Origin: Pectobacterium sp. CFBP8739
GTDB lineage: Bacteria; Pseudomonadota; Gammaproteobacteria; Enterobacterales; Enterobacteriaceae
Assembly (NCBI RefSeq): GCF_013449375.1
Contig: NZ_JACDRR010000032.1
Span: 1-37,265 of the forward strand
Length of the DNA stretch: 37,265 bases
Direction: 5' to 3'
The position numbers and the translations under genes were made by a program. The notes under the pieces are model-generated. The model did no database searches and was not told the DNA's origin. It saw only the letters and a list, made by a program, of their open reading frames with translations. Numbering within the stretch: the stretch's first letter is position 1; each line of letters starts with the position of its first letter. This document shows, one piece after another, positions 8,345 through 18,321 of this stretch.

Positions 8345-9306
<962 letters not shown>

Positions 9307-9824: not shown

Positions 9825-10586
9825 TCAGCCACAGGGAAAATCGTGAAAATGTACGGTATGACCTTCTTCTGTCGTCAGAAAAATGGCGTATTGCGGGGCT
9901 TCCAGACTGGTTTCGAATCCGGGTGCGAAACGCAGGGCGGACTGATGGTTGGTGCCGCGTACCGTGCTAAACGATATTCCTCGCCAGTTGCCGCTAGCAG
10001 GCCGATGCACGTGCCCTGCAGAAATATGCAGCACATTGCCGAAACGATGGCACACCTGATACAGCGCGTCTGCCGCCTCGGAAGCCAATCGAACGCTATC
10101 CAGCGCCGGAAGCCCGATCGACATCGGAGGATGATGCAAGAACAGGAACACGTTCTTTTCTTTCGCAGCCTGAAGCTGTTGCTCCAGCCATGCCAGCCTC
10201 GCAGAACACAGCGTTCCGGCGACCTCGCCGGCCTGCAACGAGTCCAGCAGAATGACGCAATCATCCCCCACAGACGTCACGTTCTGCACAAACCCATTTT
10301 CATCCGCCAGCGTCGGGAACTGAGCCAAAAACACCTCACGGTCGTCGTGATTCCCCATCGTCACACACCAGGGAAGCTGCAATTCAGCCAGCGCCGAGGC
10401 CAGAAACGTATAGGATGCCGCACTGCCGTCATCGGACAGATCGCCGGAGATCACCACCAGATCGGTATCACAGTGGTGTGCGTTGATATCGGCAATCGCC
10501 GCCTTCAACTGCTGCTCAGGATCGCGACCATGCAAATTGCCGCCTTGTGCGGTCAGATGAAGGTCGGAGAGTTGAATCAGTTTCAT
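9825..10586 (-). CDS. GpdQ/CpdA-type metallophosphodiesterase
   Basis: A 253-residue class III cyclic-nucleotide/phosphodiester phosphodiesterase of the calcineurin fold. Two-metal ligands appear in the family order: Asp8 and His10 (SDLHL), Asp49 (SGDLSD), Asn79-His80-Asp81 (GNHDD), His151/152 (HHPP), and His192 and His194 (GHVH). This spacing is close to Enterobacter GpdQ, a glycerophosphodiesterase, and also to cAMP phosphodiesterase CpdA. There is no signal peptide, so it acts in the cytoplasm. The start is the ATG before KLIQLSDLHL, with GAGGATAAT upstream; 14 earlier in-frame codons are discounted. It is the last gene of the transport operon, 47 bases after the LacI-type gene, so its substrate is probably what the importer brings in. 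The substrate itself is unknown. Confidence 0.85.
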   Translation of the reverse strand: MKLIQLSDLHLTAQGGNLHGRDPEQQLKAAIADINAHHCDTDLVVISGDLSDDGSAASYTFLASALAELQLPWCVTMGNHDDREVFLAQFPTLADENGFVQNVTSVGDDCVILLDSLQAGEVAGTLCSARLAWLEQQLQAAKEKNVFLFLHHPPMSIGLPALDSVRLASEAADALYQVCHRFGNVLHISAGHVHRPASGNWRGISFSTVRGTNHQSALRFAPGFETSLEAPQYAIFLTTEEGHTVHFHDFPCG

Positions 10587-10633
10587 ATTATCCTCGGTTT
10601 TCACTATCCACGCGTTCTCGCCCGTCACTGCCG

Positions 10634-11638
10634 TTACGCCGACTGGCGGCGGATGAGCGGGGCAGCCACTTTCGCTCTACACGCAGGTTCTTGTACCTGA
10701 GACTGGCGTCGATCGAGCAACGCCAACGCCTGCGCAGCCATCGTTGCAGGATCCTGACGAAAGGTCGTCAGCGCATAGGCATCCCATCCTGCGGCCGGAA
10801 TATCATCAAATCCGATCACCATGAGATCCTGCGGAACAGCCAGGCCATACTGCTTTGCGCGATCGATCACACCGAACGCGACTAAATCGTTAACACAGAA
10901 CACCGCATCTGGCCTGACGGCTTCAGGAAGCGAAAACAGCGTCTGCCCGACCACCAGCCCATCGTCATAATCCGTATCGCCACCACGTACCACGGCCACA
11001 GACAGCCCTAAGGCTCGCGCCTCATCACAAAATGCCTGTTCACGTTCAATGATATTGGGCGTTGCCGAGGCCGCTCCGGCCAGCGCCAGGCGCGTTCTGC
11101 CCGATGAGGCAAACAGCCGCGCCGCCATGCGTGCGGCGGTGTCATTATCAATGTGTACGCTGTCGCACGCCGGTTCGTGCCGACCGATGACAATCAGCGG
11201 CTGACCGTTCAGCTGTGCCAGCTCAACAAACTCTTTCGGCGGCGAGCCAGAAAGCACAATCGTCGCTTCCGCACGATGTCCGAATAGAATGGAGCGCGCG
11301 GCCGCCATCGCTTCCCGCACATGGCCGGTATTGATGAGAACGGGAATTGAGCCGCGTTGAATTAACGCCTGCGACAGTTCCGCCACCAGATTGGCACGAA
11401 ACCCAACTTCGGGGTGTGTCACCACCAACCCAACCAGACGGCTGCGGTTCGTCAGCAGGCCACGCGCCAGATCGTTAACCTGATAACCCAACTCCTGCGC
11501 CGCCGTCATGACTTTGGCATAGGTGGCAGCCGACACACTGGCGCCAGGGGTAAAACTGCGGGATACCGCCGAGCGCGATACCCCAGCCCGACGCGCCACA
11601 TCCTGTGCGCTAACGTAGCCCTGCTTACCTGCCGTCAT
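10634..11638 (-). CDS. LacI-family transcriptional regulator of the transport operon
   Basis: A 334-residue regulator. The N-terminal HTH reads VSAQDVARRAGVSRSAVSRS (9-28), followed by a hinge helix near LARGLLTNRS and a periplasmic-binding-protein-like effector domain. Diagnostic segments are VGLVVTHPEVGF, PDAVFCVNDLVAFGV and VIGFDDIPAAGW. The stretch after the recognition helix (FTPGASVSAAT) departs from the usual LNGSxxVSxxT. The ATG overlaps the permease stop codon as ATGA, so translation is coupled and the regulator is made with its targets. Probable operators are the palindromes upstream of the ATPase gene. The effector is unknown, possibly the imported compound or its breakdown product. 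Confidence 0.88.
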   Translation of the reverse strand: MTAGKQGYVSAQDVARRAGVSRSAVSRSFTPGASVSAATYAKVMTAAQELGYQVNDLARGLLTNRSRLVGLVVTHPEVGFRANLVAELSQALIQRGSIPVLINTGHVREAMAAARSILFGHRAEATIVLSGSPPKEFVELAQLNGQPLIVIGRHEPACDSVHIDNDTAARMAARLFASSGRTRLALAGAASATPNIIEREQAFCDEARALGLSVAVVRGGDTDYDDGLVVGQTLFSLPEAVRPDAVFCVNDLVAFGVIDRAKQYGLAVPQDLMVIGFDDIPAAGWDAYALTTFRQDPATMAAQALALLDRRQSQVQEPACRAKVAAPLIRRQSA

Positions 11639-12441
11639 TTCCCTATCCTTGCCATTACGTCGGCTTTCAAAAAACGCTCCACCACCAGCATGAACAGCAC
11701 AGAAGGAATCAGCAGCACCAGCGCGGTAATGGAAGCGATCTGGTAGTTGCCGCCCGCCCCCGCGGTGTAAAGCAGCAATGGCATCATCTGCACATCTGGT
11801 GCTCCCACAAAGTAGCTGCCGGTAAATTCATCCAGCGATTCGAGGAAAACGAAGATGGCTGATGCCATCAGCCCCGGCATAGCCAGCGGCAGAGTGATAT
11901 CGACAAAGGCACGCCACGGCCCGGCACCAATCGACCGTGCCGCCTGTTCCATTTCACGCCCCACCGCCGAGAACGCCGCCGAAGCAATCCAGACGGCAAA
12001 CACCAGTCCGTGAACCGTGTGAACCAGCACGACACCCAGCAGCGTGCCATTTAGCCCCCACTGATAGAACAAGCGAGCGATATTGACGTACACCGTCAGG
12101 TTCGGAAACGCCTGTGGGATCAGGAATACCAGCAGTATCAATCCGCGAGCAGGCAGCGGCAGACGCGCCAGCGCATATCCCGCCGGAATCGCCAGCGACA
12201 GCGAAGCCAGCACGGTAAACACCGCCACCAGCACGCTATTTCCCAGCGCTTCCCAGGCCACACCGCGCGGTGAAAACACGCGTTTCCAGAAGGCGAAGCC
12301 CCAGTCATTGGGCAGCAGGTGAGGATAAAACCATTTTTCCGCCACCGACCACAGTAGGAGGTTAGCCAATGGCCCAAAGATCAAGAAGATCAGCGTCCCC
12401 AGAATCAGCATTCTCGGGATCCACCACCGTACGTTCTTCAT
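11635..12441 (-). CDS. ABC importer permease, second subunit
   Basis: A 268-residue inner-membrane protein with about six hydrophobic segments, the first at residues 10-31 (PRMLILGTLIFLIFGPLAN). The cytoplasmic EAA-type loop that contacts the ATPase reads EQAARSIGAGPWRAFVDITL (about 166-185), followed by PLAMPG. This layout is that of the PotC/PhnV-like member of iron(III)/polyamine/phosphonate-type importers. The start codon overlaps the stop of the first permease (ATGA) and its own stop overlaps the LacI-type gene, indicating tight translational coupling. Substrate cannot be read from the permease. Confidence 0.85.
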   Translation of the reverse strand: MKNVRWWIPRMLILGTLIFLIFGPLANLLLWSVAEKWFYPHLLPNDWGFAFWKRVFSPRGVAWEALGNSVLVAVFTVLASLSLAIPAGYALARLPLPARGLILLVFLIPQAFPNLTVYVNIARLFYQWGLNGTLLGVVLVHTVHGLVFAVWIASAAFSAVGREMEQAARSIGAGPWRAFVDITLPLAMPGLMASAIFVFLESLDEFTGSYFVGAPDVQMMPLLLYTAGAGGNYQIASITALVLLIPSVLFMLVVERFLKADVMARIGK

Positions 12442-13277
12442 GCTTTATCCCTCATGTTCAAGCGGAGATAAATCACGGCAAACAGACTGGTCATCAACAG
12501 GGAAATCACCCCCAACGCATTCGCCACGCCATAATCGCCGTAGGCGTTAATGCGAAAAGCAATATTGGCAGTTAGCATCGTCGGCGACTGGGCATTGATC
12601 ATCATCGGTACGGACAGCACCGACATCATGGTGACGAAAGAGAGAATGAGCCCGGTGAGCAGCGTTTGCCCAACCTGAGGCACCACAATTTCACACAGGA
12701 TACGCAAGCGCGATGCACCTAAGTTACGGGCAGACTCGATCATCGTGCGATCCAGCGATGCCATCGCGCCCGCGACCAGCAGCGCCACAAACGGCGTCTG
12801 TTTCCAGACAAAGGCGAACACAATGCCACGCCAGTCCAGCCAGTTGCTGGCACTGGCCATATCGACAATGCCGAGCGTATCCAGTGCGCCATTCAGCCAG
12901 CCGTTCTTAGCCAGAAACGTGCGTAAAATTTGCCCGGTCACGATAAACGGAATAAACAGCGGCCAGCGATAGACCCAACGCAACAGCGCCACCATACGCG
13001 GGCTTTCCCCCAGAGTCAGGTAGCCGCCGATCATGACGGAAAGCAGGCCAATCAGCAGCGTTGAGAGGCTCACTATCAATAAAGTAAACAGGATATCGGG
13101 CAGATACAGCGTCAATGCCGTGACAAAATTATCAATGCCCACGCCATTCTGACTGACAAAAGCGCCCCCAACCGACAGCCCCAGCGGCGTGATAAAACAG
13201 ACCGCCACCACTGCCAGCGCGGGTAGCACAAGCGCGATACCCGCCAGTCGGGAAGAAAATTGGGATACGTGCAACAT
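12438..13277 (-). CDS. ABC importer permease, first subunit
   Basis: A 279-residue inner-membrane protein with about six membrane segments, the first around residues 11-35 (AGIALVLPALAVVAVCFITP). The EAA-type coupling loop is ESARNLGASRLRILCEIVVP (near 185-204). It belongs with the PotB/PhnU-like permeases. It is 69 bases downstream of the binding-protein gene and overlaps the second permease by 4 bases. The heterodimer of the two permeases should form the translocation pore used by the binding protein and ATPase of this operon. Confidence 0.85.
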   Translation of the reverse strand: MLHVSQFSSRLAGIALVLPALAVVAVCFITPLGLSVGGAFVSQNGVGIDNFVTALTLYLPDILFTLLIVSLSTLLIGLLSVMIGGYLTLGESPRMVALLRWVYRWPLFIPFIVTGQILRTFLAKNGWLNGALDTLGIVDMASASNWLDWRGIVFAFVWKQTPFVALLVAGAMASLDRTMIESARNLGASRLRILCEIVVPQVGQTLLTGLILSFVTMMSVLSVPMMINAQSPTMLTANIAFRINAYGDYGVANALGVISLLMTSLFAVIYLRLNMRDKA

Positions 13278-13346
13278 GAAGGTCTCCGCGCTCTGGCTTT
13301 ATCCTGCCAGAGCGCATGTAATGCGAAGGGTTCTAAGCCAGTGGCA

Positions 13347-14480
13347 CTATTTCGCCATCGCCTGCTCATACGCGTTTAAAATCGCGGTGTGGTAAGGCGC
13401 GATAGGGAACGTCTTGCCTTTGCTCGCCAATTCATCCGGCGTTACGTCTGTGAAAAGACGCTGCCATACCGCGGGTTTTAGCTCGGCCTGAACGTACTTG
13501 GCATCGATCCCCGGATACCAGTTAAAGCGTTCCACAATCCCTTCAGCCTGTACTTTGGCGCTGGTTGCCAGTTCAACAAACTGCTTAGCCAGTTCGCGGT
13601 TCGGTGCCTGCGCGGGGATGACATAGTGCATCGGCTGCCCCGGCATACCGGGCGCAGGCAGCAGTAATTTGAAATTATCCGGCAGTTGTCCGCTCGCTTT
13701 CCAGGAATAGAACATATCGACCCACACCGGCCCCATCGCGATTTCACCGCGGCTCAGCATATCGAGCGTGCCCGCGTTGCCCGGCGTCAGCGTCACGTTC
13801 TTGTTAAAGGCTTTCAGGCGTTCAAACGCCGGCTGCCATTTCTGCGCTTCCGCCTCATCAAACGGCCCATTCATCAGCTTCTGAGCATCGCCGCCGTAAG
13901 CGTAAATCCAGCCCATGACGAAGCTCACGCCCGATGCGCCGCCTTTAATCCCGTTGTAGCCGAACATTTTCGGATGCGCGGCAGCCCACTGTTGAATTTC
14001 GTCATAGCTTTTAGGCGGATTCGCGACCATGCCAGGGTTATAGGCCAGCGCCGTCTGGCTACTGAACATCGGCATGACGTAGCCTTTTACGTCTGTGCCC
14101 ATGGCTTTATCCGCCGCGGCCATGTTAACCAACTTGCCACTGGCGATATCGTCGCGATATTTCAGCAGGTCACCCTTTTGCACCATCGGGCCGACAAATT
14201 TCTCATGCACGACTGCCACATCGGTGTCCCAGACTTTGGCACCTGCGGCCTGCTGTGCATTGAAACGCTCTAGAATCTTCTGCGACCCCGCATCACCCGG
14301 TCCGGTGCCGACGGCACGTACTTTTACGCCGGGATGCTGCTTCTCAAACAGCGGCCCCAGATACTCATTGACATAGTCGACCATGTTTTGGTCACCCGCC
14401 GTCAACACCGTTAATTCCTGTGCCTGTACCACCGCCAGTGGCGTACTCATCATCAGCGTTGCAGCAAAAATGCGTTTCAT
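13347..14480 (-). CDS. Periplasmic solute-binding protein of the ABC importer
   Basis: A 377-residue family-1-type extracellular solute-binding protein. The N-terminus MKRIFAATLMMSTPLAVVQA is a signal peptide with cleavage expected before QELTVL. The mature part starts with the usual beta strand (LTVLTAGDQNMVDYV) and carries YGGDAQKLMNG and GEIAMGPVWVDMFYSW, which are typical of this fold. It loosely resembles the YnjB/polyamine/iron-binding clade; no metal-binding tyrosine pair was recognised, so an organic or phosphorylated ligand is more likely. The start was placed at the second Met (five codons into the longest frame) because it begins a standard signal peptide. Second gene of the operon, 22 bases after the ATPase. 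Confidence 0.85.
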   Translation of the reverse strand: MKRIFAATLMMSTPLAVVQAQELTVLTAGDQNMVDYVNEYLGPLFEKQHPGVKVRAVGTGPGDAGSQKILERFNAQQAAGAKVWDTDVAVVHEKFVGPMVQKGDLLKYRDDIASGKLVNMAAADKAMGTDVKGYVMPMFSSQTALAYNPGMVANPPKSYDEIQQWAAAHPKMFGYNGIKGGASGVSFVMGWIYAYGGDAQKLMNGPFDEAEAQKWQPAFERLKAFNKNVTLTPGNAGTLDMLSRGEIAMGPVWVDMFYSWKASGQLPDNFKLLLPAPGMPGQPMHYVIPAQAPNRELAKQFVELATSAKVQAEGIVERFNWYPGIDAKYVQAELKPAVWQRLFTDVTPDELASKGKTFPIAPYHTAILNAYEQAMAK

Positions 14481-14502
14481 CTCATTTGTCTCCAATTCAG
14501 GA

Positions 14503-15669
14503 TCAGGCCGTCAGGCCGGGAAGCGAGGAATAACGTGAAGGGATATCCGATACCGCTGGCGAAGACATCGCCTCTTCTGCCAGCGGGAAAAGAAACAGCG
14601 CCTCGGCAGGGATCTGCACCGCAACCCGCTGCCCAATGGCATACGGATGCGCAGCGTGAACCTGTATCCGCCAAGAGCCGCTGGAAATCGTATGCAGCCA
14701 ATATCCACCGGGGTAACTTTGTGCCTGCACTGTACCGTAACGCATCAACATACCGGGCTGGATGAGCGGAACCTCTGCCGCATCGTAAAGACAAGCCGCT
14801 TCCGCACGAAAGCGCGCTTCTATCGGGCCGGGCTGTAGCGACGTATGTGCTGGCACCAGCGAGTGACTTTCGGCATCACCGGAAATCATCAGCGTATCGC
14901 CGTCATAACGCGCCTCCAGCACCAGCCGATTCTCTGCGCCCATAAACGCCGCGACAAACGAACTGGCCGGATGGTGGTACACCTCTTGCGGGCTACCCGC
15001 CTGCATGATGCGACCCTGATTCAAAATCACGATGCGATCTGCCATCACCATCGCTTCTTCGCGATCGTGCGTCACGTGGATCGCCGTCAATCCCAGACGC
15101 TGTTGCAGCGCACGGATTTCATCACGCAACTGTAGGCGAATGCGGGCATCCAAATTGGAGAGCGGTTCGTCCAGCAGCAAAATATCGGGTCTCACCGCCA
15201 GTGCACGGCCCAACGCGACGCGCTGACGCTGTCCACCGGACAGTTCCGCAGGCTTACGGGCACTCAGCCCCGCCAACCCGAGCATGGTTTCCAGTTCCGC
15301 CACGCGGCTGGCAATCTCCGCATGCGGCACACGGCGCAAACGCAGCCCGTAAGCAATATGCTGTGCCACCGTCATATGCGGCCACAGTGCGTAACTCTGA
15401 AACACCAGCGCCATTCCACGTTTCTCCGGTGGCGCTTGCGTCATATCCTGTCCGTTAACACGAATAGTCCCTGAACGCGGCGATGAAAACCCCGCGACCG
15501 TACGCAGTAACGTCGTCTTGCCACATCCTGATGAACCGAGCAACGCCACGAATTCGCCCTGCGCGATCTCCAGATGGATATCGTTCAATACGGCGGTCGT
15601 GCCGTACCCAACGTGTAGATGGTCGATAACAATGTGCGGGGCTGCCGCAGGGGAAGTATTTTTTTGCAC
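14503..15669 (-). CDS. ABC importer ATPase (PotA/FbpC/PhnT type)
   Basis: First gene of the operon. Using the GTG start, 388 residues: Walker A GSSGCGKT near 45-52, Q-loop FQSYALWPH, signature LSGGQ at 143-147, Walker B ILLLDE at 163-168, D-loop SNLD, and switch His201 in HVTHD. The C-terminal 130 residues form a TOBE-type domain, as in PotA/FbpC/PhnT transport ATPases. The start is unclear: no ATG fits. A TTG at 15693 gives 396 residues, while GTG at 15669 has a weak GGA upstream and is preferred. The chosen start overlaps a perfect palindrome, a likely operator. Substrate unknown. Confidence 0.85.
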   Translation of the reverse strand: MQKNTSPAAAPHIVIDHLHVGYGTTAVLNDIHLEIAQGEFVALLGSSGCGKTTLLRTVAGFSSPRSGTIRVNGQDMTQAPPEKRGMALVFQSYALWPHMTVAQHIAYGLRLRRVPHAEIASRVAELETMLGLAGLSARKPAELSGGQRQRVALGRALAVRPDILLLDEPLSNLDARIRLQLRDEIRALQQRLGLTAIHVTHDREEAMVMADRIVILNQGRIMQAGSPQEVYHHPASSFVAAFMGAENRLVLEARYDGDTLMISGDAESHSLVPAHTSLQPGPIEARFRAEAACLYDAAEVPLIQPGMLMRYGTVQAQSYPGGYWLHTISSGSWRIQVHAAHPYAIGQRVAVQIPAEALFLFPLAEEAMSSPAVSDIPSRYSSLPGLTA

Positions 15670-15678
15670 AGCTGTGCA
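15665..15678. promoter_or_regulatory. Perfect 14-bp palindrome, candidate operator
   Basis: TGCACAGCTGTGCA is a perfect even palindrome covering the proposed GTG start of the ATPase gene. LacI-family operators are even palindromes with flanking TG...CA arms, though usually with a central CG rather than the GC seen here. It could let the operon's own LacI-type regulator block initiation. Confidence 0.45.
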
Positions 15679-15735
15679 TTCCGCGATAATCAAACAATGC
15701 GCCGATTGTGCGGTGAGATCGTGTCAGTGGCGTGT

Positions 15736-15748
15736 TGTCATCATGACA
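15736..15748. promoter_or_regulatory. 13-bp palindrome TGTCATCATGACA upstream of the transport operon
   Basis: A perfect inverted repeat (6+1+6) 67 bases beyond the proposed ATPase start and 58 bases from the other palindrome. A further half, TGTCAT (minus strand, plus 15753-15758), follows nearby. Likely a regulator site; whether it is for the embedded LacI-type protein or another factor is unknown. Confidence 0.4.
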
Positions 15749-15827
15749 TTTCAATGACACGGCTTACGAGGAGGATGACGGGGGACATTTTTGGCGAACA
15801 GAAAAACGGGAAAATGTATCTGGAGTA

Positions 15828-15885: not shown

Positions 15886-18321
15886 CTACAGTAACTGCGC
15901 CAAACGGTTTAGGTCAGACTGAAGCGCACCTGCCGTAACATCGCGCCCCGCCCCCGGCCCACGAATAACCAGCGGGTTATCCCGATACCAGCGGCTTTCT
16001 ATCGCAAATACGTTATCACCCGGTAACAGCGACGCCAGAGGATGATCGGGGCGAACGGCTTCAACGCCCACGCGCGCTTTACCGTTGCTGTCAAAGCGTG
16101 CGACATGACGCAGAACCAAACCCATCTCCTGTGCCGCTTCCAGACGGCGCAGCATCTGCTCGTTCAGCGAATCGCCATTCTCGAAGAAGTAATCGACGGA
16201 ACCCTGTTCACAACCCGGCGGCACCAGCGACTCAACCCGAACCTGACTAGGTTCGATGTCATAGCCCGCCTCACGCGCCAGAATCACCAGCTTGCGCATG
16301 ACGTCCTGACCAGAGAGGTCAACGCGTGGATCCGGCTCGGTCAACCCCTGCTGGCAAGCCTGATCGACCAGATCGGTGAACGGTACAGTGCCATCGAACT
16401 GCAAGAACAACCAGGAGAGCGTGCCGGAGAAAATCCCGCTAATCGCCAGAATACTGTCGCCGCTTTCACGCAGATCACGCACCGCAAAGTTGACCGGCAA
16501 CCCTGCGCCGACGGTCGCGTTATACAACCAGTGGCGATCCGTTTTCGCGAACGCATCGCGGATCTGGCGATAGTTATTGCCACCGGATGCACCGGCCAGT
16601 TTGTTGGCGCTGATGACGTGGAAACCATAGCTGGCGAAGTCCAGATACAGATCGGCGACGGAATCACTGGCGGTGACGTCCAACACCACCAAATCATCGA
16701 AGGGGTGCGCACGCATCCACAGGAACAGATCTTCACCATCCCGCTCCTGCGCTTCACTTTCAAAGAAGGCCAACGCCCGGCTGGCATCCAACCCATCATA
16801 GTTCAGCAGGCTGCGCGTACTGTCCACCACGCCAGCCAGAACAAACTCAAAGCCGGTACGTGCAGACAGATTGCTCTGCTCACGCGCAAACAGCTCCAGC
16901 CAGCGTGAACCAATATTTCCTTTGCCGAACAGCACCAGACCGATGCGCTTCTCTGCACGGAATAGTGAATGGTGCAGCCCGCGAATCAAGTGTTCCGTTG
17001 GACCGACACGCAGCACCGCCACCAGACTGATGCCATCATCGGCCTGGCGGACAAATTCAATCGGCTGATCTTTCAACTGCTGATAGAACCGGTGGCTATG
17101 CAGCGGATTTTTACCCACGCCTGCACCGACCATCGCGACCATTGCCAGTCCGTCACGCTGGTTGAGTTCAACGGGTAACGCAGCCTGTGCCAGCAGTTGC
17201 AGCGCGCTATCCACCACTTCGGAGGTGTAGCACAGTTGCAGCAGGTTACGATCCTGATGAGCGCCGATTGCCAACGGTTTCAACTGCGCACGGTTCAGAA
17301 GCTGTTCGACTTCTTTTTGTAGCAGCGCAAAATCGTGTTCTGAAGGAACCTGAACTTCAATCAGGCACACGTCATCATGGCTGGTGACAATTTTGGCGCC
17401 CGAGCCTGAGGCCAGCACGCGTTCGATACGCGTCGACCCCTGTTCAGGCTGATAACTGCAACGCAGTTGTAAGTCGATATCGCTACCGGAAACGGGCTGC
17501 AAGGTACGCGTATGCAGTACCGGCGCAGCCAGACGCGCCAGTTCACTGGCTTCATCCAAACGCAGCAGCGGCAGCAGGCAAGCATCTTTCACTTTGCGCG
17601 GATCGGCGCTATAAACCCCAGCGACGTCGCTCCAGATAGTCACACGTTCAACCCCCGCCAGCGCACCAATTTGCGTAGCAGAGTAGTCACTTCCATTGCG
17701 CCCCAGCAGCACCGTTTCACCCGCTTCATTACGGCAGATAAAACCGGTTACCACCAAGCGCTGCCCTACATGTTGCGTCAGATATTGCTGCAACAGCGGC
17801 CAGGAACGGCCTTCATCAACCTGCGGCTGCGCGGCACGTTCCGCGCAGAGAAAATCGCGCGCATCCAGCCAGGCCGCATTCATATCCAACTGATTCAGTA
17901 CAGCGGACATCAGACGAGCCGACCAAATTTCACCGTGCCCAACCACTTCGGCGTAAACGGCATCGGTAATCTTGCCATCCAACAGCGTAGCCAAACGCTC
18001 CAGGTCGCGAATAAACTGGGCGGTCAGCGCTTCTGCCGCTTGCGCAGGCAGGAGGCCGGCGATCAGCTCACTTTGATAACGGCGTAACGCCTGCTGAACT
18101 TGATGCGCCGACAGACGATCGCTCTGACTGAGTTTCAACCAGCTAATCAGTTGGTTTGTGGTACTGCCCGCAGCAGACACCACCATCAAATCACCGGGGT
18201 GGCTATACTCCGCCATAATACCGGCTACGCGCAGGTAACACTTCACATCGGCCAGACTGCTACCGCCAAACTTATGCAGTTGTCGGCCCGTTACCGATGG
18301 CGCTACTCCTAATGCACTCAT
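15886..18321 (-). CDS. metL: Bifunctional aspartokinase II / homoserine dehydrogenase II MetL
   Basis: Cytoplasmic enzyme that catalyses the first step (aspartate phosphorylation) and third step (aspartate semialdehyde to homoserine) of the methionine branch. The product has 811 residues (810 in E. coli). The kinase domain begins with HKFGGSSLAD (16-25) and contains GRNGSDYSAT. A regulatory linker follows. The dehydrogenase domain starts near residue 460 with the NAD(P) motif LFGKGNIGS and carries VISANKLAGASGG and SGTLSWLF. MetL in E. coli is not feedback-inhibited but is repressed by MetJ. It follows metB after a 2-base gap, so the two are cotranscribed and probably translationally coupled. 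Confidence 0.97.
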   Translation of the reverse strand: MSALGVAPSVTGRQLHKFGGSSLADVKCYLRVAGIMAEYSHPGDLMVVSAAGSTTNQLISWLKLSQSDRLSAHQVQQALRRYQSELIAGLLPAQAAEALTAQFIRDLERLATLLDGKITDAVYAEVVGHGEIWSARLMSAVLNQLDMNAAWLDARDFLCAERAAQPQVDEGRSWPLLQQYLTQHVGQRLVVTGFICRNEAGETVLLGRNGSDYSATQIGALAGVERVTIWSDVAGVYSADPRKVKDACLLPLLRLDEASELARLAAPVLHTRTLQPVSGSDIDLQLRCSYQPEQGSTRIERVLASGSGAKIVTSHDDVCLIEVQVPSEHDFALLQKEVEQLLNRAQLKPLAIGAHQDRNLLQLCYTSEVVDSALQLLAQAALPVELNQRDGLAMVAMVGAGVGKNPLHSHRFYQQLKDQPIEFVRQADDGISLVAVLRVGPTEHLIRGLHHSLFRAEKRIGLVLFGKGNIGSRWLELFAREQSNLSARTGFEFVLAGVVDSTRSLLNYDGLDASRALAFFESEAQERDGEDLFLWMRAHPFDDLVVLDVTASDSVADLYLDFASYGFHVISANKLAGASGGNNYRQIRDAFAKTDRHWLYNATVGAGLPVNFAVRDLRESGDSILAISGIFSGTLSWLFLQFDGTVPFTDLVDQACQQGLTEPDPRVDLSGQDVMRKLVILAREAGYDIEPSQVRVESLVPPGCEQGSVDYFFENGDSLNEQMLRRLEAAQEMGLVLRHVARFDSNGKARVGVEAVRPDHPLASLLPGDNVFAIESRWYRDNPLVIRGPGAGRDVTAGALQSDLNRLAQLL

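Follow-up and report, generated by a model that had tools for sequence, protein, structure and literature searches.

What does an ATP-binding cassette (ABC) importer carry when its operon also encodes a cytoplasmic phosphodiesterase and a LacI-type regulator? The question is raised by a locus of Pectobacterium sp. CFBP8739 within a stretch of 37,265 nucleotides (contig NZ_JACDRR010000032.1; hereafter the window). Six minus-strand genes, encoding an ATPase, a periplasmic solute-binding protein (SBP), two permeases, a LacI-family regulator and a calcineurin-like phosphodiesterase (PDE), stand between metL and metF and form one operon, as a preliminary description of this DNA had proposed: gaps measure 5-69 bases, two junctions are 4-base overlaps, and each gene has a Pfam family. 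Comparison with related loci makes it probable that the operon, under the control of LacI, takes up a small organophosphate diester for cleavage in the cytoplasm. The SBP, the two permeases and the ATPase would bring in the diester, the PDE would cut it to a phosphomonoester, and a phosphatase would turn the monoester into an alcohol and phosphate; this last enzyme would be of the inositol monophosphatase (IMPase) family in the operons of some relatives and is presumably a chromosomal enzyme here. LacI, bound at TGCACAGCTGTGCA by the ATPase start, would repress the operon as long as neither the compound nor its product is bound to it. Observed are the order of the genes, a palindrome conserved among relatives, phosphodiesterase folds that replace one another, and a phosphatase partner in some relatives. 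We infer the substrate class, the effector and the repression, and import as the direction of transport is suggested by the transporter family.

The evidence that carries this reading comes from the operons of relatives, where the enzyme slot is filled in several ways. Relatives of the SBP occur at 447 places in a collection with one genome per species, and the locus comparison drew on the best 80 of these. The set of 102 loci, window included, omits L191, L193, L194, L195, L198, L199 and L214 (contigs shared with other rows), L069 (a copy of L082), and L087 and L109 (split genes); L100 and L116 stood outside one comparison of the relatives' genes and L092 outside another. Slot enzymes were scored by profile within 4.5 kb of the SBP gene, or 5.5 kb for the metallo-β-lactamase (MBL) fold. 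An SpdA-like PDE was found at 42 loci (among them L211, a weak member with 33% identity), a 2H cyclic phosphodiesterase at 33, an MBL-fold protein at 4, a glycerophosphodiester phosphodiesterase (GDPD) at 1 and none at 22; the loci are akin to one another, so that these counts are not independent. Four unrelated phosphodiesterase folds in one slot, often together with an IMPase-family phosphatase that has its own operator at seven loci, argue for phosphodiester import and cytoplasmic cleavage, the function first suggested for this operon. The common denominator of the variants appears to be import, conversion of diester to monoester, and removal of phosphate. The preliminary description had also raised the concern that the PDE might usually occur without this transporter, and here the result is mixed: 60 of the 102 transporter loci lack this PDE, yet 38 of the 60 carry another phosphodiesterase.

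The window's PDE is well preserved. In an alignment of 34 sequences including the window, every one has the metal ligands D8, H10, D49, N79, H151, H192 and H194 (counted from the methionine at 10586), which bears out the earlier statement that all visible ligands are kept; the class III motif set D-x-H, GD, GNHD, H, GHxH is present, and no signal peptide is visible by eye, again as first described. Its best curated model is the SpdA equivalog NF050112 (238.8 bits, below the cut-off of 400), and it scores 106.2 bits with the CpdA model PRK11148, below the cut-off of 225. The closest solved structures by sequence are 2zo9 (93.8 bits), labelled a phosphohydrolase in the entry and taken by us to be GpdQ, a glycerophosphodiesterase, and 2hy1 (Rv0805; 70.9 bits); the window PDE is like them in the metal ligands it keeps and unlike them in these low scores. 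SpdA of Sinorhizobium meliloti, according to the consulted part of its description, is a cytoplasmic class III 2',3'-cyclic nucleotide phosphodiesterase that hydrolyses 2',3'-cNMP and not 3',5'-cNMP (PMC4222275). Although its model ranks first for the window PDE, the latter falls below the equivalog cut-off, and the spdA gene lies at the cyaD1 locus, where the same part of the source discusses it in relation to cAMP signalling and names no importer (PMC4222275). Other calcineurin-like PDEs, 32-41% identical to that of the window, adjoin different ABC importers (L075-L079, L230), so the pairing exists in more than one lineage.

The enzymes that take the place of the PDE are recognizable to differing degrees. 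Pfam places representative 2H proteins in CPDase and 2_5_RNA_ligase2; the 2H proteins keep both HxT/S motifs in 21 of 21 aligned sequences, and have as their top solved match the cyclic phosphodiesterase 1fsi (E 2e-23), presumably the Arabidopsis enzyme, which is thus the nearest solved relative of the proteins at 33 of 102 loci; the window itself has no 2H protein. The nearest solved structure to the MBL proteins is Apyc1 (7u2s, E 5e-19). Mapped on the SBP tree, the slot shows 18 label changes in total (SpdA-type 14 and none 14, singly counted, 2H 4, MBL 1), and fewer are forced by well-supported branches alone. Because most changes are between SpdA-type and none, losses are frequent and exchanges of enzyme few. 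A looser search gave weak GDPD matches (33 bits) near L135 and L150, both scored as none. Among 297 Rhizobiales genomes, a sample not picked for the gene set, 26 have the SBP at E 1e-60, with an SpdA-type enzyme at 7 of these loci, 2H at 9, GDPD at 1 and none at 9. A PDE search in ten genomes with an enzyme-less locus found one elsewhere in G299, G303 and G304 (53-54% identity to the alphaproteobacterial query) and one of 35-41% in G300, G305 and G310, a level also reached in 2H-bearing genomes; four have no PDE at E 1e-35. The unlinked PDE of Mesorhizobium soli (G303, G304; 54% to that query) adjoins an IMPase gene.

IMPase-family genes accompany 22 of the 102 loci (Pfam Inositol_P on representatives), and their top solved matches are inositol-1-monophosphatases/SuhB. 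They occupy three positions: between LacI and PDE; upstream of the ATPase, a position seen in 2H loci; and, in the gammaproteobacterial MBL loci L071, L074 and L325, behind LacI. Those upstream of the ATPase have an operator of their own with 0-1 mismatch in 7 of 7 cases (L112, L113, L115, L118, L124, L126, L129).

The operator itself is a palindrome, TTGCACAGCTGTGCAA, common to the upstream regions of the relatives and predicted to be bound by the LacI of the operon. The 14-base core TGCACAGCTGTGCA is the sole site with 0-1 mismatch in the window's draft genome; at up to 2 mismatches, all sites together number 9 against 7 for a reversed control, which is about background. A LacI gene scoring above 200 is present in 84 of 101 relatives, 77 of which have a 0-1-mismatch site near the ATPase start, at 0.8-1.9 kb ahead of the SBP gene (the seven without one are L074, L099, L112, L113, L147, L149 and L154); the site is also present in 4 of the 17 relatives without such a LacI. 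The DNA-binding region is conserved across LacIs of loci with the same operator: identity to the window LacI over the first 66 residues is 69-79% in the window family (n=7), 59-68% in other operons (n=6), 50-52% in gammaproteobacterial ones (n=2) and 27% in an unrelated one (n=1). The gammaproteobacterial L071, L074 and L325 carry TGAACACGTGTTCA in place of the common palindrome, and the recognition helix, which from LacI anatomy we place at SRSAVSR in the window, reads SRAAVSR in L071 and SRAVVSR in L074. A 1-mismatch site also lies about 2.77 kb upstream of the SBP gene in L125, L133 and L145, in the former two at the start of a protein of 501-506 amino acids that looks secreted by eye.

The same operator reaches beyond operons of the window type. 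Of 397 Rhizobiales genomes, 38 have its exact core, against 0 of 397 for a reversed-pattern control; many of these genomes are closely related, and independent events are therefore fewer than the numbers suggest. We inspected the genes around each of the 38 sites, calling them by profile similarity, with many profiles made from one sequence. All 38 adjoin importer and/or phosphoesterase genes, and a phosphodiesterase and/or phosphatase is found in 32 clusters (in L310, 6.4 kb from the site). Window-type operons account for 19, 14 of them with an SpdA-type or 2H enzyme and 5 without. Nine comprise an ATPase, an SBP, a fused permease, an MBL protein, LacI and a protein like dual-specificity phosphatases (DSP), the DSP call in these MBL operons being a motif spotted by eye. 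Three combine a different importer with GDPD and IMPase, and three another fused-permease importer with DSP, two of the latter also having IMPase, a large calcineurin-like protein and a Na/Pi transporter. The remainder are one IMPase with an importer, two LacI-PDE pairs without an importer and one set of UgpB/UgpA homologues. Pfam searches on representatives confirm GDPD, Inositol_P, Lactamase_B, Metallophos, Na_Pi_cotrans and DSPc. Neorhizobium galegae has a second exact site 134 bases before UgpB, UgpA, UgpE and UgpC genes that all exceed NCBI cut-offs. Eleven further 1-mismatch sites were inspected in five genomes: two stand before an importer (L268, L271), one at GDPD/Ugp-like genes (L273), and the rest beside genes without evident link. 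The SBP of the second importer at L268 (G310, Rhizobium SL86) and L271 (G297, N. galegae) matches that of the GDPD and IMPase operons L306/L307 at 550-556 bits. At L273 (G301, Pseudochelatococcus) the site has a DeoR-GDPD pair on one side and a UgpC/UgpB-like importer on the other, and the window-type locus of this genome is without a PDE. At L266 and L270 (G310, G297) the 1-mismatch site TGAACAGCTGTGCA lies between a gene for an FAD-linked oxidase and one NUDIX-like by eye, and the PDE gene of one LacI-PDE pair (L312, 4980-7088) is broken up by a segment that by eye resembles a transposase.

Which diester would be imported is less clear than that one is. Given a phosphodiester, we see about an even chance that the substrate is a five-membered cyclic phosphate, such as a 2',3'-cyclic nucleotide, inositol 1,2-cyclic phosphate or glycerol 1,2-cyclic phosphate. 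This class is favoured because it is the chemistry that the mutually replacing enzymes share best: for three of the four slot folds the nearest relative that is curated or solved (SpdA, 1fsi, Apyc1) is a cyclic-phosphate enzyme. A cyclic phosphate would best suit SpdA-type and 2H enzymes, and perhaps MBL enzymes too; linear glycerophosphodiesters would fit GDPD, the kinship with GpdQ and the link to Ugp. We think it rather unlikely, though it is the closest competitor, that the operon as described handles instead a linear glycerophosphodiester or a sugar phosphodiester, in the manner of Ugp or of agrocinopine uptake. The exact operator stands before the N. galegae UgpB/A/E/C genes and, in one other genome, before UgpB/UgpA homologues, which speaks for such a substrate, as do the co-occurrence of GDPD and IMPase in three same-operator operons and the position of a glycerophosphodiesterase, GpdQ, as closest solved relative of the PDE. 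The acc operon, with its importer, phosphodiesterase and phosphatase (PMC4526662, in the part consulted), also counts in favour. Such a substrate accords poorly with the 2H alternative at 33 of 102 loci, since 2H enzymes are not known to act on linear glycerophosphodiesters, and with the window SBP, which gives no match to the UgpB model at E 1e-3 among NCBI models.

Homology of the importer bears on two further alternatives. The top NCBIfam models for the ATPase and permease B are PhnT2 (346.9 bits, cut-off 457.7) and PhnV (72.9 bits, cut-off 358.7), which would suit import of a phosphonate such as 2-aminoethylphosphonate. Both scores are below cut-off, that of PhnV far below, and PhnU2 reaches 64 against 593; the accessory enzymes, moreover, are phosphodiesterases and phosphatases, and no enzyme acting on C-P bonds is among the 25 commonest of 103 neighbour families. 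The phosphonate-like substrate allowed for in the preliminary description therefore appears very improbable. Ugp models also stay below their cut-offs (UgpA 31 of 335, UgpE 21 of 297, UgpC 325.5 of 432 bits), and the SBP reaches 51 bits with PRK11622, whose cut-off is 203. Because matches of the SBP to solved binding proteins are weak, with maltose- and polyamine-binding proteins in a sequence search, its ligand is not readable from homology. Permease and ATPase match polyamine, molybdate, sulfate and iron models at comparable levels, which would allow a transporter for an unrelated sugar, polyamine or metal with the PDE as a passenger, for example a housekeeping enzyme for cAMP or 2',3'-cNMP. 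The 22 loci without a PDE agree with this, and so do PDE-superfamily matches (E 1e-3) in 283 of 295 genomes of the order. Against it stand the turnover of phosphodiesterase folds within one slot, the IMPase genes that have an operator to themselves, and the phosphoesterases in 32 of 38 operator-bearing clusters; we consider this explanation improbable.

Several observations weigh against import and cleavage of a diester, or against its being cyclic. The window operon has no phosphatase gene in our reading of its genes. No recognised phosphodiesterase lies near the SBP gene at 22 of 102 loci, no operator was found at up to 2 mismatches at the unlinked PDE-IMPase pairs of M. soli (L227-L228), and the 25 commonest neighbour families include no pathway that names the alcohol moiety. 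At the set profile scores and distances none of the 102 loci has two phosphodiesterases; a looser search shows that the sister loci L206 and L207 hold a second calcineurin-like gene of another kind beside the 2H gene, so the rule of one phosphodiesterase per locus is not absolute. Linear glycerophosphodiesters fit equally well the GDPD of one family member and of other same-operator operons, and the operator before Ugp genes. Apyc1 cleaves 3',5'-cyclic nucleotides, and the MBL proteins score higher with the NCBIfam model of RNase Z (74-96 bits) than with that of the cyclic-nucleotide enzymes (33-48 bits), all below cut-off. SpdA hydrolyses 2',3'-cAMP slowly, with a Km of 3.7 mM according to the part of its description consulted (PMC4222275).

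In its way of working the window operon resembles ugpBAECQ and the acc operon, though it is identical with neither. The earlier remark that it is not a characterised system holds as far as identity with either is concerned, and falls short in that these two work alike. E. coli ugpBAECQ is an ABC importer with its own cytoplasmic phosphodiesterase under PhoB control; the window operon shares this combination, and its operator also precedes Ugp genes in two rhizobial genomes, but its SBP is not UgpB, its phosphodiesterase has another fold and LacI takes the place of PhoB. In the acc operon of Agrobacterium, AccF belongs with the GDPD-like proteins and AccG with the IMPase-like ones, and AccR is no LacI-type regulator. 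This operon, as set out in the consulted part of the source, serves agrocinopine uptake through the AccA-E importer, the phosphodiesterase AccF, the phosphatase AccG and the repressor AccR, with the cleavage product as effector (PMC4526662). Importer, cytoplasmic phosphodiesterase and repressor recur here, but a phosphatase partner is found only in relatives of the window operon, which therefore lacks the full acc-type combination of genes, and the enzymes are calcineurin-like, 2H or MBL and rarely GDPD. Because the acc operon uses its cleavage product in this way, the product may be the inducer here too. A literature search, mostly without full texts, found no description of the gene set or of the operator.

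The distribution of the operon points to an origin outside the genus. Among named representative genomes the top SBP matches are Pectobacterium species with 97-99% identity; genomes labelled Symbiopectobacterium or Serratia share the arrangement at 87%. The gene order recurs in eight Pectobacterium loci (L080-L086, L109), in L070 of the same genus and in three Symbiopectobacterium/Serratia-labelled loci (L087-L089); in L087 and L109 operon genes are broken across reading frames, through decay or sequencing error. In the window's family, sampled at one genome per genus, the second permease is found at E 1e-60 in 3 of 60 genomes: the window, L326 with the same gene set, and L325 of the MBL type. 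Identity of the SBP amounts to 70-75% with its nearest alphaproteobacterial relatives, 57-66% with remoter ones and 58-60% with four gammaproteobacterial ones. In a maximum-likelihood tree of the SBPs of the 102 loci, the Pectobacterium group is nested in the alphaproteobacteria beside Cereibacter/Rhodovulum (support 100/98), which makes horizontal transfer the simplest account; the operon was probably gained from alphaproteobacteria, apparently soil bacteria. The suggested search for the gene set in other genomes thus recovered it in relatives, and no shared catabolic pathway emerged: a Pfam tally (103 of 203 flanking genes; the 25 commonest of 103 families) gave none for inositol, nucleosides or glycerol, the commonest family, LysR, accounting for 6 of 103.

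More tentatively, and with somewhat less than even confidence, we propose that one LacI subfamily and one operator govern a guild of cyclic-phosphate-ester importers in Proteobacteria, with exchanged importer, ring-opening phosphodiesterase (SpdA-type, 2H, MBL, GDPD, large calcineurin-like) and phosphatase (IMPase, DSP), and that one such operon was acquired by Pectobacterium from alphaproteobacteria. If the reading of the operon is right, a function class could be proposed for an SBP family whose relatives occur at 447 places; one regulator subfamily would be linked with five types of phosphodiesterase and two of phosphatase, and the operator could be used to find further members. Phosphate diesters, perhaps cyclic ones released by RNases or phospholipases, would then count among the nutrients of soil and of rotting plant tissue. 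Under the guild proposal a dedicated uptake route would exist for cyclic phosphates, for instance 2',3'-cyclic nucleotides or inositol 1,2-cyclic phosphate.

Table 1. Genes and predicted regulatory site of the operon and its flanks, in window coordinates.
Feature	Position	Strand	Remarks
ABC importer ATPase	14503-15693	minus	PF00005; start TTG 15693 or GTG 15669, the GTG falling inside the operator
Periplasmic SBP	13347-14480 (open reading frame from 14495)	minus	Pfam SBP_bac_8/SBP_bac_1
ABC permease A	12438-13277	minus	PF00528 (BPD_transp_1)
ABC permease B	11635-12441	minus	PF00528 (BPD_transp_1)
LacI-family regulator	10634-11638	minus	PF00356 (43 bits) and PF13377 (Peripla_BP_3, 96 bits), both above cut-off
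Calcineurin-like PDE, SpdA/GpdQ/Rv0805 group	9825-10586 (open reading frame from 10628)	minus	PF00149 (Metallophos), 53.4 bits
Predicted LacI operator, perfect palindrome TGCACAGCTGTGCA	15665-15678		exact match; overlaps ATPase start
metL (flank)	15886-18321		
metF (flank)	8345-9286		

The 4-base overlaps join permease A to permease B and permease B to LacI; the spacing is 7 or 22 bases between ATPase and SBP, 69 between SBP and permease A, and 5 or 47 between LacI and PDE. For the SBP, the ATG at 14480 is the likelier start and gives MKRIFAATLMM..., a signal peptide by eye; for the PDE, the likelier ATG at 10586 agrees with the relatives. The gene set of the preliminary description stands, but its end point at 15750 lies 57 bases past the ATPase reading frame.

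E. coli genomes gave no near match to the operon (DNA identity of at least about 85%), and the one E. coli strain inspected has other genes behind metL. In this strain, 7/2 (L324, 4167-6002), they are a hypothetical gene and a gene for a bifunctional metallophosphatase/5'-nucleotidase, with metF outside the stretch inspected; the site behind metL may attract phosphoesterase genes.

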